From: a virus
Reading direction: 5' to 3' (one strand)
IMG/VR virus record: IMGVR_UViG_3300030019_000042
Coordinates: 1 to 53,352 of that record
Length of the DNA: 53,352 nucleotides
The notes beneath the pieces were generated by a model. That model was given only the letters and a program-made list of their open reading frames with translations. It was not told where the DNA came from and ran no database searches. The translations under genes were made by a program, and so were the position numbers. Below are positions 30,389 through 49,860 of this stretch, piece by piece (position 1 is the first letter of the stretch; the number at the start of each line of letters is the position of its first letter).

Positions 30389-31050
30389 TACTTTGTTTTG
30401 TTTACGTAAATTTCTTCAGGTAACATTTTTTTGATATACCCCTGCTCGAACCACAATAAACCAGATTGGCTCTTATAGAACCTCTTTGCAAGGTCAAACT
30501 TAATGTCGTGAATCTCAACCGTCGGGATTGACTTGTAAAGTTCAAAATCTACCAAGCTGTTTTCAAACTGCTCTTTTGCCCGCTTCTTATACGAATGAGG
30601 AAATTCTCTATAAAAGTAATTTGCTTGAGCTGAAATTAACCAATGTACAAAATAATGGAAAGGGTGCGACTGCCCGAAAGGAGCTACAATTTTATAATCG
30701 GGATTTATCTTTTGAAATTTCCTGATGAAGGCATACAAAGCTTGAGAAATTTCAGTCAACTTATCTTCTCCCCAATATTCTGTCAAATAATTTAGGGCAT
30801 TCTCGTGATTAACGGTTTTAAACTGTTTAAAATACCCGTAATAGCTTTGGTCGTCGAACTCTACTGTCAAGTGGTGAAAAGGTATGTTCAAGAACTCATA
30901 AAGGTTCTTATCTTCTTGTATACGCTTTGCATTATTTTCAACGGTCAACACTTGAACTTCGTACCCTTCTCCCAATAGTGCGTGCGCACAACTAAACAAA
31001 ATATCATCACTGTGCGGCTGAATTAGCAATAGCTTTTCTACTTTTCCCAT
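30388..31050 (-). CDS. LmbE/PIG-L-type deacetylase
   Basis: The 220-residue protein begins with LLLIQPHSDDILFSCAHAL, a variant of the PHPDDE zinc motif of PIG-L/LmbE enzymes (His13, Asp15, Asp16), and has a second histidine-rich site at PFGQSHPFHYFVHW. The family removes N-acetyl groups from GlcNAc-containing compounds. A Glu usually follows the DD pair and is Ile here, so activity should be tested. It overlaps the radical SAM gene by 13 bases and the glycosyltransferase by one. The three together look like a small glycan or nucleoside-modification pathway. Confidence 0.78.
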   Translation of the reverse strand: MGKVEKLLLIQPHSDDILFSCAHALLGEGYEVQVLTVENNAKRIQEDKNLYEFLNIPFHHLTVEFDDQSYYGYFKQFKTVNHENALNYLTEYWGEDKLTEISQALYAFIRKFQKINPDYKIVAPFGQSHPFHYFVHWLISAQANYFYREFPHSYKKRAKEQFENSLVDFELYKSIPTVEIHDIKFDLAKRFYKSQSGLLWFEQGYIKKMLPEEIYVNKTK

Positions 31051-32006
31051 TTTCTTTTTACAATTATTTTTGATAAAGGTTGATTCTTTTTTGTTACTGA
31101 TTGGGCCAATGTCCGGACTTCATCGCTTATTTCCGGAAGTGTCTTTTGACCTGTTGGATCTGGAAGTAATCCAACTCGCATGCTTAAATTTGTACAACCT
31201 AAACATGGTGAGAAACTTCGTTCCTTATTATACAACATAACTCTGGCGGCTTGAAAACGTTCGTGGTTCCACAGCGCGTCAATTTCATAGTCAAATATAC
31301 TGCCAATTGGATAAGTGCCTCTGAAGTCGTCGCAACATAAAGCCACATTTCCATCCCAGCGAAAAGACATTTCCCTAAACGGCATAGTGCAACGTTTATG
31401 TTGGTCTTTGTTATCCAATGGGAACGCTGCTCCACAATGGTTAGTTAGGTTACGAACTAATGATATTTGTTCGGTACGTATTGGCGGAACAACTAAAATA
31501 CGGAACTCTTTTTTGTCAGAGAACATTGGTATCCCTGCTTTGAGATATTGTATGTCTTCCTTGCCATCCATCTCCTTAACAATTTTTGACCAATCTCCTT
31601 CGTCTGAATAGTTGTCTAACAATAGATGGTTGATGCCTGCTTCTTTTAAAGCTTCTATTTTTTCGTGTATGAAATCTTCTTCTTTTGCGATACCGTACCC
31701 GTTCGTTATTAAATGAAATATTGTCTTTGGCAAAGCAAACCTGAAAATACTAATTATGTCCAATAATTGCGGGTTCAAAGTTGGTTCCCCGTGCATTGCG
31801 AAGATTATCTTACTTGGCCAATTTGCTTTAGCTATTTCGCCCGCTATTTCTTTTGCAGTCTTTAGCGTCATAAAATTCCAAGGAGTAGTACCTTTTTCTC
31901 GCATTCCCCTTAACCCGCAAAAACTGCAACCAAGATTACACCCCTCGGTCGGCTCAATTTGTATTGAGTATGGGGCATGTTGTAATTCTAAATCTTCTAA
32001 TGCCAT
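31038..32006 (-). CDS. Radical SAM protein with SPASM-like C-terminal cysteines
   Basis: The 322-residue protein has the radical SAM cluster motif EGCNLGCSFCG (Cys23, Cys27, Cys30) and a following MHGEPTLNP ('GGEP'-like) SAM-binding motif. The C-terminal part contains CTMPFREMSFRWDGNVALCC and CLGC with a GSIFDYEIDALWNHERF pattern, typical of SPASM domains that hold an extra iron-sulfur cluster. Such enzymes start radical chemistry on peptides, sugars or small molecules. It heads a coupled operon with a deacetylase and a glycosyltransferase. The substrate is unknown. The gene pattern is unlike normal head genes around it and may be an acquired module. Confidence 0.87.
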   Translation of the reverse strand: MALEDLELQHAPYSIQIEPTEGCNLGCSFCGLRGMREKGTTPWNFMTLKTAKEIAGEIAKANWPSKIIFAMHGEPTLNPQLLDIISIFRFALPKTIFHLITNGYGIAKEEDFIHEKIEALKEAGINHLLLDNYSDEGDWSKIVKEMDGKEDIQYLKAGIPMFSDKKEFRILVVPPIRTEQISLVRNLTNHCGAAFPLDNKDQHKRCTMPFREMSFRWDGNVALCCDDFRGTYPIGSIFDYEIDALWNHERFQAARVMLYNKERSFSPCLGCTNLSMRVGLLPDPTGQKTLPEISDEVRTLAQSVTKKNQPLSKIIVKRKWEK

Positions 32007-32298: not shown

Positions 32299-32575
32299 TT
32301 ATGCTACTGCTCTGAGCGGTGCATTAGAAAAGTTGATTGTTTTGCCCGTTATAGACAACGACTTTCTCTTTTTACCCTACTTATAACGCTGTCAAAACCA
32401 AACAGCCCCGTATAATTGTAACTAACATTCCCGTAGTCTAAGGCATAATCGGAATGCAGTTGCCTTCTGTTAGTTACTCCTCTGGCGAAGGATGTGGAGC
32501 TGGAGGGAGTCGAACCCTCGTCCAAACGTATTTCAAATAAACGTCATAGATTGTCGTGTAATATTAATAACCTTG
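32299..32575 (-). ncRNA. ssrA: Circularly permuted (two-piece) tmRNA
   Basis: On the minus strand the acceptor part comes first: the T-arm GGACGAGGGTTCGACTCCC and CTCCAGCTCCA ends at 32495. The 5' part comes second, starting at 32409 with GGGGCTGTTTGGTTTTGACA. GGGGCUG pairs with CAGCUCC in a 7-bp acceptor stem with the G3-U70 pair needed for alanine charging. A second helix can form between GCGUUAU (383-389) and AUGACGU (541-547). The intervening 85 bases (32410-32494) fold back through GTAACTAACA / TGTTAGTTAC. The tag frame, ending at TAA 299-301, reads GKTINFSNAPLRAVA from a GGC resume codon at 344-346. CCA is not fully encoded. This order is that of permuted tmRNA genes, processed to two RNAs. 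The 5' limit of the acceptor piece is uncertain. Confidence 0.88.
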
Positions 32576-32579
32576 GTAG

Positions 32580-33512
32580 TTATTTTGTGACTTTTATGTC
32601 AAGCTTCACACCTTGAAGTCTTGGATTTTTAGCAATATATTTTGGAGCAATAGAGAACGCCCGTAAACCTGAATCCCAAAGATAACCTTTTTGCTTATGG
32701 TTTATTGTGCAACGACAGTACGGGTGAACTGGAGAAATTGTCGCCTTATAATCAGCCGCCTTGAGTCCTATGTTATTCCCGTTCGCTATTACATCATCCA
32801 ATACATAAACTATCGGTTCGCTATTTGGGTCTTCTGGGTCTGTCAAGTAAAGCTCTTTGCAATGTTTACAAGCTCCTTCATAAACATCAAAATAGACTTC
32901 GGAATCAACGCCGTGGTTCTTTACGATACTTTGAGCTATTCCGGAGTTATACGCTTCGTGTAATAAGTAGTAAGCAATACGCAGCCAATCCCTTTCCCAG
33001 TCCTTAGTCGCTTCCCCAAGTTCCGCTGCTAGAGTACGCCCGCTTTTTCGTAATTCGACAGCCTTCGCCGCCTTATCCTTGATTAACGCCTTTATTTTGA
33101 ATTGGTTCTTTTGATTGCCACGAACTATGATATTTGAAGTACCTTGTCTGATACGACTACCCAGCCCACCAATATCATTATATGCTCGGTTCTTGATTTG
33201 TTCAAGAGCAAATCTTTCTTGTTCGGTCAAAGGTATGAAGTTACCAGAACCTAAAAACTTTGTAAACTGCGAGTAATTCAATCCCTTTGCTCTTTTAGAA
33301 CCTAATGCGTCGGACAATATTCCAAAGTAGAATGCATGGTCTATTATACCTTGACTATTCTTATACAAATTTACGTCAATTCCGGAAGCTAGAAGTAACG
33401 CTTTTTCGTTAGCCGACAGATAATTGTATCCAAGTTGTTTACCCACGAATATGCATTCCCACCTTTTGAGTATTCCGAGTATATCTTGTATTTGGTTATT
33501 GTTGAATATCAT
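32580..33512 (-). CDS. MuF-like minor head protein
   Basis: The 310-residue protein ends in the phage head morphogenesis (Mu gpF-like) domain: DWERDWLRIAYYLLHEAYN and SGIAQSI, then VYFDVYEGACKHCKELYLTD, and PVHPYCRCTINH, with the Cys pair and the 'HP.CRC' cluster typical of the family. These proteins bind portal and help DNA packaging and head assembly. It overlaps the zincin-like gene start region by 4 bases (start 33512, upstream stop 33509). The tmRNA acceptor piece begins within a few bases of its stop. Confidence 0.85.
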   Translation of the reverse strand: MIFNNNQIQDILGILKRWECIFVGKQLGYNYLSANEKALLLASGIDVNLYKNSQGIIDHAFYFGILSDALGSKRAKGLNYSQFTKFLGSGNFIPLTEQERFALEQIKNRAYNDIGGLGSRIRQGTSNIIVRGNQKNQFKIKALIKDKAAKAVELRKSGRTLAAELGEATKDWERDWLRIAYYLLHEAYNSGIAQSIVKNHGVDSEVYFDVYEGACKHCKELYLTDPEDPNSEPIVYVLDDVIANGNNIGLKAADYKATISPVHPYCRCTINHKQKGYLWDSGLRAFSIAPKYIAKNPRLQGVKLDIKVTK

Positions 33513-40705: not shown

Positions 40706-41716
40706 TCATTTACCGATTACGCCCGTTGATTGTGGTACAAATTTAGACCTTTGTTTGCCTTCTCCAATTGTCATTTTCCAATACTTTTGAAATTCACATA
40801 GCCACATCTCTATCTGATGCAATGTGATATTGCATTCCTTGTCTGTGTAGTATTTACCTTTATCTTTATTCCAATAGAGGTAAGGCATCGAACCGAACCT
40901 CTTCAGCTCAACTTCAGCTAAATCTCTAAGCATATAGATTCCTATTTTTTGAGCCTTCCCTTTTAAGTTAGGGAAAATTAACCGTATCCCCACGCTAGCG
41001 CCAGGACCGACATTGGTGTAATCGTCTTGAGTGAACTTCATGAACCTTCGATTTGTGTAGCGAAAGATGTAAGTAAAATCTTGATAAAATTCGTGCGCTA
41101 TGAAATCAGCAACCCCAGGATATGACTTCAAATGTTTAATTATATCTTCCGGAGTTTTAGCGGTCAAAACTGTCTTTACTATGTTGTTGATATTTTTATG
41201 AAGCGTTGGGATTACAACTCGAGTATAACAATAATCGCGGGTGTGGTGAGGTGAGGCTTGTGAATTTATTAGATAAGCGTTGGTGAAAGGGTTGGCGTTG
41301 CAATCTCTTACTTCTTGTATTACTTCAGCAAAATCATCTTCATCAAAATCTTCCCAATTCTGGATACCCGCCTTCCAGCCGCGAGTCATTACCGCATATT
41401 CAAAAGTATTGGGATTGTTAAAATAGCGAAAGAACATTATCTTCCATATCAGGTTCCGGAGCGATAAACTATCATCCAGAATAATATTCTTGATTTGCCA
41501 TTGTGAATTTTTATCCAACTCACGATAAACGTTTGTAAACTTTGATTCAGATAGTATCTTATTTTTAGTCCATGGCGCGGGAGTCTTGTCTATAAAACGT
41601 TTCTTCCATACATTTTGGCGCTCAAACATTACATTGAAAAACAATTCCAGATTTGGTCTATAAACTTCCAAATCTTCTTCAGGCAAAGAACTATGCCAAC
41701 TATTTCTTTCAAACAT
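40706..41716 (-). CDS. Thymine-hypermodification protein (5-hmdU kinase helical / aGPT-pyrophosphorylase type)
   Basis: The 336-residue helical protein has the signature I recall for the alpha-glutamyl/putrescinyl-thymine pyrophosphorylase and 5-hmdU DNA kinase helical family: FNVMFERQNVWKKR, PAPWTKNKIL (47-55), FTNVYRELDKNSQW (60-73) and FFRYFNNPNTFE (95-106). These families act in phages that replace thymine with modified 5-hydroxymethyluracil derivatives. No separate kinase domain is present, so pyrophosphorylase- or transferase-like function is more likely than kinase. With the TET-associated-type glycosyltransferase and dUTPase upstream, it suggests modified DNA. Recognition is from motif memory. 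Confidence 0.68.
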   Translation of the reverse strand: MFERNSWHSSLPEEDLEVYRPNLELFFNVMFERQNVWKKRFIDKTPAPWTKNKILSESKFTNVYRELDKNSQWQIKNIILDDSLSLRNLIWKIMFFRYFNNPNTFEYAVMTRGWKAGIQNWEDFDEDDFAEVIQEVRDCNANPFTNAYLINSQASPHHTRDYCYTRVVIPTLHKNINNIVKTVLTAKTPEDIIKHLKSYPGVADFIAHEFYQDFTYIFRYTNRRFMKFTQDDYTNVGPGASVGIRLIFPNLKGKAQKIGIYMLRDLAEVELKRFGSMPYLYWNKDKGKYYTDKECNITLHQIEMWLCEFQKYWKMTIGEGKQRSKFVPQSTGVIGK

Positions 41717-49140: not shown

Positions 49141-49860
49141 CTACAATTTTTTATATTTTATTTTTAAATCCAGCCGCCCGAATTTTTCGACCACGGTGCA
49201 GTTTAATGGATAACGTTGGACCATTATTTCATTATACTCCAAGTCTTTTTTGTCTCGATAAAAATCGGAAAAACCGCCGCTATTAGCTACCATTGTATGG
49301 TCGTATGCAAACGTGTTAAAACGCATTACAATTTTGTCGGCATAAATGTTCTTCAACGTGAAGTCCATGTCCTCTTTGCATTTCAACGTTTCGTCGTACC
49401 AAATATCGGTCTTGGAGTTTATTAATGTAATAGTCCCCACGAAACAATTAAAAGCATACGGGTTTTTTGAACTCCACACGAATTGGCGCATGCCGAGGGT
49501 CGCTATGTCGAACGATAAGTCTTGAGCCTCATATTCTAGTAACGATAGATATTCAAGAGTAGGTTTCCGGTTAGAATTATTGGTAAGGCGACTCGTAACT
49601 TGATCTAAGATATCAAACTTTATAATGTCGTCGTCAATCATCATTAACAGTTCACCGCGATACCGCCTTTTTATGAAATTCCGGACATAAGATATCCCCA
49701 TATCGTTTTTAGGCAATACGAGGATATTTTGTTTTTCATGCCCCCCTTTTAGGTATAGCTCAAAATCTTGAGGTTCTACTACTACTGTGTATTTGATACC
49801 CTGAAGCAGACTGAATGTCTTTCCGTTGGGTCTGTTCTTTGAGGGAATGTATATGTCCAT
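49141..49860 (-). CDS. TET-associated-type glycosyltransferase (GT-A), DNA modification
   Basis: The 239-residue protein begins IPSKNRPNGKTFSLLQ, then YTVVVEPQDFELY, LVLPKNDMGISYVRNFI, and LLMMIDDDIIKFD (Asp76-78, metal and donor binding), followed later by CKEDMDFTLKN. This order (IPSKNR, VVEP.., L.LP..D.GI...RN.I, DDD) is what I recall for TET-associated glycosyltransferases, which put sugars on oxidised bases such as hydroxymethylpyrimidines in phage DNA. I see no TET/JBP gene in this window. If the identification is right, it glycosylates modified bases; if not, it is still a GT-A enzyme. Confidence 0.68.
   Translation of the reverse strand: MDIYIPSKNRPNGKTFSLLQGIKYTVVVEPQDFELYLKGGHEKQNILVLPKNDMGISYVRNFIKRRYRGELLMMIDDDIIKFDILDQVTSRLTNNSNRKPTLEYLSLLEYEAQDLSFDIATLGMRQFVWSSKNPYAFNCFVGTITLINSKTDIWYDETLKCKEDMDFTLKNIYADKIVMRFNTFAYDHTMVANSGGFSDFYRDKKDLEYNEIMVQRYPLNCTVVEKFGRLDLKIKYKKL

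Follow-up and report, generated by a model that had tools for sequence, protein, structure and literature searches.

The window analyzed here, the whole 53,352-nucleotide stretch of IMG/VR virus record IMGVR_UViG_3300030019_000042, carries a circularly permuted tmRNA gene on the minus strand at 32529-32299, as identified from the sequence, a covariance model and ARAGORN. The acceptor half of the gene lies upstream of the half that encodes the tag, and the locus is composed of the following elements, given in the direction of the minus strand:

32580..33512, minus strand: upstream neighbour, a head-morphogenesis gene, read as MuF-like by inspection
32496..32529, minus strand: acceptor piece, first in the gene, with the P2 3' strand, GGAC junction, T-arm and 3' acceptor strand (RF04321 match, sequence, covariation)
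32519-32503, minus strand: T-arm of 5 bp, with GAGGG at 32519-32515, loop UUCGACU at 32514-32508 and CCCUC at 32507-32503
32502-32496, minus strand: 3' acceptor strand CAGCUCC, from the sequence
32495, minus strand: discriminator A73, at which the acceptor piece should end before CCA is added
32494-32410, minus strand: intervening segment, 85 nt long, that is expected to be excised (sequence, RF04321)
32477-32468, minus strand: 5' arm of a 10-bp stem, GUAACUAACA, pairing exactly and identical in strain L137
32425-32466, minus strand: predicted H-type pseudoknot, AAGGCA/UGCCUU crossed with GCAUUCC/GGGAAUG (p 0.016 versus shuffles)
32427-32418, minus strand: 3' arm of the 10-bp stem, UGUUAGUUAC, pairing exactly
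32409-32403, minus strand: 5' acceptor strand GGGGCUG, the start of the coding piece (sequence, RF04321, non-circular pairing test)
32386..32391, minus strand: P2 strand of the coding piece, CAGCGU, pairing with 32523-32529 (cognate test, strain swap)
32346-32299, minus strand: tag reading frame encoding GKTINFSNAPLRAVA, with resume codon GGC (A at -4) and stop codon UAA (ARAGORN; conserved in relatives)
32286-32264, minus strand: intrinsic-terminator hairpin of 8 bp (7 G-C) followed by AUUUUUG, the likely 3' end of the precursor
31038..32006, minus strand: downstream neighbour, a radical SAM/SPASM protein in the head-gene region

Within the coding piece, GGGGCUG is followed by UUUGGUUUUGAC, the second P2 strand and the tag frame GGC...UAA. 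All seven pairs of the acceptor stem form, the G3-U70 pair among them, and CCA is not encoded after A73, where the DNA reads CAT. The two pieces are joined by a second helix, P2, comprising the pairs C32391-G32523, A32390-U32524 and G32389-U32525, a bulged U32526, and the pairs C32388-G32527, G32387-C32528 and U32386-A32529. The 85-nt length of the intervening segment and its 10-bp stem, both put forward in an earlier sequence-only reading of this DNA, were found to be exact; the last bases of the predicted pseudoknot overlap that stem.

A search of the whole window against all families returned a full-length match to the permuted tmRNA model RF04321 (tmRNA_permuted; model positions 1-213, 50.2 bits, E 5.8e-7), which exceeds the gathering score of that model, 47 bits, by only 3 bits. 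ARAGORN called a permuted tmRNA with the tag GKTINFSNAPLRAVA, and this was the sole tRNA or tmRNA that it found in the 53-kb window. Both programs named as checks in the sequence-only reading, ARAGORN and a permuted covariance model, thus call the permuted form. The one-piece model RF00023 remained below its cut-off in the window (33.9 vs 47 bits), and none of the alpha-, beta- and cyano-type models RF01849, RF01850 and RF01851 reached cut-off in the window or in the related phage loci checked. These clade models do match control loci, namely in a phage of Alcaligenes (beta type) and one of Pelagibacter (alpha type). The total folding energy of the tmRNA stretch was ordinary (z = -0.22) and was rejected as evidence for a tmRNA because it is uninformative; relatives were therefore examined for pairing, and the case for a real tmRNA comes from the covariance model and covariation rather than from folding energy.

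Relatives were collected from IMG/VR with a pattern for the T-arm only, which demanded a C after A73 and returned at least 120 loci. The acceptor stem was studied in 39 distinct loci, among the matches listed, that have a downstream GGGG...TT(T/C)GAC site. In 36 of these 39 loci pairing is complete at the variable acceptor positions 5-7, while shuffled partners gave a mean of 18.4 and a maximum of 25. For P2, cognate strands from 24 divergent phage representatives paired with a mean of -5.7 kcal/mol, compared with -3.1 for mismatched partners, and none of 20,000 permutations was as good (n = 24; permutation p = 5e-5). The claims that a 7-bp acceptor stem with the G3-U70 pair and a second helix join the two halves, and that the gene on the phage minus strand is permuted, were in this way borne out by covariation as well as by the programs.

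Further information came from strain L137/L151, which is nearly identical to the window (portal 99% identical, neighbouring upstream gene 89%). In this strain P2 is replaced on both strands, from ACGUUUG/CAGCGU to GCCUUUUG/CAGGGGC, and still pairs; the swapped strands sit ~ 135 bases apart, and the T-arm and acceptor are unchanged. The joint change amounts, as judged from the sequences, to a natural compensatory experiment. Over the 110 nt of the tag and terminator, the window and L137 are 99% identical. Ahead of the acceptor piece, the L137/L151 loci also have an extension that the window type lacks; it contains UUAGCUCAGUAGGG, a sequence resembling a tRNA D-arm.

The intervening segment was compared across copies by testing the predicted pseudoknot against shuffled spacers. 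It reached p < 0.05 in 8 of 20 Bacteroidota-type members (mean z -1.1) and in 1 of 15 alpha-, beta- or cyano-like copies (mean z -0.28). Stem sequences differ on both strands when the window is compared with L137 and when L013 is compared with L031. Since the pseudoknot is nominally significant in 8 of 20 and is not universal, it is reported as a lead. Such a structure might keep the acceptor strands in place for processing, or it might stop exonucleases. Pseudoknots are also predicted in the spacers between the acceptor strands of L041, L116, L162 and L013/L031, and some spacer pseudoknots have an A-rich third loop and stop short of the RNase P site by a few bases.

In nearly all members 29-45 nt separate GAC from the resume codon, which is GGN in most. 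An A at -4 of the resume codon is expected for a tmRNA; here, the search for the resume codon itself imposed that base. In 14 aligned members the tag is conserved as GK(V/T)(I/V)x(M/L/F) at the N terminus and L-R-(A/M)-(A/V)-A at the C terminus, and the third positions are the freest at most aligned tag codons. The phage tags fall into the families GKxxxM...LRAVA, GNxFVTDYT..A and GEQVELAMAA. In the window the tag ends in RAVA, which is hydrophobic, and by analogy with ALAA-type tags we infer that a tagged peptide would be degraded. No phage ClpP was found in the window, all three ClpP-like hits lying outside it. A phage ClpX partner for the tag was considered and rejected, as the 'ClpX' of Chryseobacterium phage MA9V-3 (PV245944.1 26938-27777) scores only 46.9 bits against a ClpX-family cut-off of 371; this gene probably encodes another, generic AAA+ ATPase.

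By its proteins, namely portal, head protease, major head protein, sheath and terminase, the window is a fragment of an SPO1-like myovirus. The closest isolate is MA9V-3 by portal (43%), MuF-like protein (35%) and head protease, and the next closest for the portal are the Bacteroides phages DAC. Only 1 of the 42 window genes is preceded by a Shine-Dalgarno-like 4-mer, and the leaders are A-rich; few Shine-Dalgarno motifs and A-rich leaders are usual in Bacteroidota. On the basis of the closest isolate and the scarcity of Shine-Dalgarno motifs, the host is very probably a member of the Bacteroidota, in agreement with the sequence-only reading. The only cellular locus found with a related portal (64% identical to that of the window) is on the Sulfuricurvum MAG contig DZBD01000005.1 (L169; Campylobacterota), which has no tmRNA. 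This is possibly a misbinned phage contig; otherwise it is a hint of a different host.

The tmRNA of the window belongs to a sizeable family in Bacteroidota phages that is so far undescribed in the literature searched. The RF04321 cut-off was exceeded by 18 of 20 related records. MA9V-3 has a permuted tmRNA (RF04321, 64.7 bits) at a genome position different from that in the window, and ARAGORN identified permuted tmRNAs in the crAss-like phages cr10_1, cr50_1, cr60_1, cr114_1 and cr125_1; four of these six (MA9V-3, cr10_1, cr50_1 and cr114_1) passed the RF04321 cut-off. In GenBank the genes of MA9V-3 and of at least five crAss-like phages carry no label beyond 'tmRNA' or 'SsrA', and the form proved to be permuted on analysis. 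Like the window gene, these crAss-like and MA9V-3 genes are permuted, lack an encoded CCA and use a Gly resume codon, but they have other tags, intervening segments of 60-214 nt and other genome positions.

The order of acceptor piece, intervening segment and coding piece, together with G3-U70, the T-arm, P2 and a tag, is common to this lineage, to RF04321 and to the alpha, beta and cyano types. Unlike the RF01849, RF01850 and RF01851 types, the lineage has UUUGAC and a GGN resume codon and is mostly without an encoded CCA. UUUGAC, in place of UUCGAC, was the property used to sort Bacteroidota-type members from the alpha-, beta- and cyano-like copies in other phages, and MA9V-3 is the sole exception, placed by its other features. 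CCA is encoded in 5 of 28 Bacteroidota-type copies versus 25 of 25 alpha-, beta- and cyano-like phage copies (Fisher p 2.6e-10), although this and other exact proportions may be biased by the C that the T-arm pattern required after A73. A Shine-Dalgarno motif precedes 12% of flanking genes in the Bacteroidota-type loci versus 51% in those of the alpha-, beta- and cyano-like copies. In a tree of the short aligned core, the beta-like copies separated, and the alpha- and cyano-like copies fell among the Bacteroidota-type ones.

Among 84,980 cellular species genomes, none contained an exact match to the UUUGAC-type pattern with a spacing of 57-87, and 14 stretches of the viral collection matched it over nearly the same gap range. 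As the pattern is strict, its absence from cellular genomes supports, but does not prove, confinement to phages. No SmpB was found in the window or in 17 related phage records, and the tmRNA of these phages must therefore use the SmpB of the host. Most relatives with 61-71% portal identity have no tmRNA in the sequence examined, so that the gene is dispensable and behaves as an accessory gene; in L149 a tmRNA is located elsewhere in the genome, far from the portal gene.

Permuted tmRNAs in phages are already known, and the present lineage appears to be a new variant. A count of phage two-piece tmRNAs gave 53, of which 50 were marine or aquatic (PMC9004378). Methylophilales phage Melnitz and marine phages resemble the window in carrying a permuted tmRNA, but theirs are of the alphaproteobacterial type, with a glutamine riboswitch, and belong to a different host group (PMC9004378). 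Phage tmRNAs of every form number 79 in the tmRNA database, which places permuted genes in three bacterial clades (PMC11915505). The paper on MA9V-3 lists a tmRNA and does not remark on its form (PMC13120357). Cellulophaga phage Calle_1 is likewise a Bacteroidota phage with a tmRNA, but this is one-piece with the standard gene order (RF00023, 86.6 bits), and together with the permuted copies it indicates that Bacteroidota phages carry both forms. A one-piece tmRNA with a long tag, AQIEANMEAVNAILNLEVAVGV, is present in both Calle_1 and phi38:1, and is unannotated in the latter. The literature searched, mostly open papers without supplements, held no description of a permuted tmRNA in Bacteroidota phages. 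The statement of the sequence-only reading that none is typical of such phages accordingly stands for the searchable literature and fails for the databases, which hold at least five crAss-like phages and MA9V-3.

We consider it highly probable that the window holds a functional two-piece tmRNA gene and that this gene belongs to a lineage which Bacteroidota phages carry; its gene order, model match, covarying pairing and conserved tag frame are direct observations. Two-piece processing, alanine charging, tagging, dependence on SmpB and a benefit to the phage are what the sequence would predict. The minus strand would be transcribed, probably with the late head genes, as far as the terminator at 32286-32264. 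Host RNase P would cut before GGGGCUG (32410/32409), and host 3' processing would end the acceptor piece after A73 (32495); since the gene encodes no CCA, an enzyme would have to add it. Pairing in the acceptor stem and in P2 would keep the two RNAs together, and the alanyl-tRNA synthetase of the host would charge the acceptor piece through G3-U70. The charged tmRNA could then enter ribosomes stalled on broken messages with the help of host SmpB and EF-Tu. Addition of (Ala)-GKTINFSNAPLRAVA would release the ribosome, the hydrophobic end marking the peptide for proteolysis. The phage would benefit if this kept ribosomes free while it infects, a time of frequent message breakage.

Other explanations were weighed against a functional tmRNA. 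A T-arm and an acceptor strand that are side by side by chance, or the remnant of a tRNA, would fit the unremarkable folding energy, but either is scarcely credible given the covariance-model match, the covariation and the conserved family. A copy acquired from another genome and now decaying without function would account for the RF04321 score barely over cut-off and for the lack of the gene in most related phages. Against this, the tag and terminator are 99% identical to those of L137 when the neighbouring gene is 89% identical, P2 has changed on both strands together, and every paired element is intact; decay is thus very improbable. The phage RNA could instead act as a decoy or inhibitor, blocking host trans-translation by binding the SmpB, alanyl-tRNA synthetase or ribosomes of the host, and there is a precedent in phage DS6A, whose tag-less tmRNA-like RNA is an inhibitor of the endogenous tmRNA in E. 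coli (PMC11915505). A tag would be superfluous in a decoy, yet the tag frame, resume context and hydrophobic C terminus are conserved across divergent phages, with the third positions freest at most aligned codons, and we regard this role as unlikely.

One further reading is compatible with a functional tmRNA. The RNA could act in the usual way and attach a distinct tag that, relative to the host tag, alters the fate of the protein, for example through slower or different proteolysis or by sparing phage proteins. The division of the tags into phage families is in its favour; all of them, however, end in small hydrophobic residues, as ordinary degrons do, the window has no phage ClpP, and the 'ClpX' match in MA9V-3 is weak. 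Reprogramming of this kind is judged doubtful, though well above the decoy in probability. Also tentative is the proposal that these genes form a fourth, phage-confined permuted lineage that arose by separate permutation or by long divergence from the alpha, beta and cyano types; it would be marked by an intervening pseudoknot and phage-specific tags, and the tmRNA of its hosts would be one-piece.

The permuted tmRNA family occurs in phage groups that are unrelated to each other, SPO1-like myoviruses and the crAss-like phages of the human gut, in phages of a phylum beyond the three known clades, and the permuted form either moves with phages or arose again. Why a phage should supply a form of tmRNA that its host lacks is a question that follows from this. 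One possible reason for the permuted form is that the phage tmRNA escapes whatever acts on the host tmRNA. As MA9V-3 is cultured, processing, charging and tagging are directly testable.

Some minor observations concern the carrier phages. In the window, 40706-41716 and 49141-49860 encode a 5-hmdU DNA kinase helical domain (HMUDK_hel) and a TET-associated glycosyltransferase, from which it appears that the phage probably hypermodifies its DNA. In cr114_1 (NC_055897.1; L006, 2043-2115) the intervening segment of the permuted tmRNA contains a complete tRNA-His gene, so that processing of the tRNA would cleave the tmRNA precursor as well. Within a few kb of the permuted tmRNAs there are hatchet ribozymes and RAGATH RNAs in the crAss-like loci L002, L003, L005, L006, L007 and L163.
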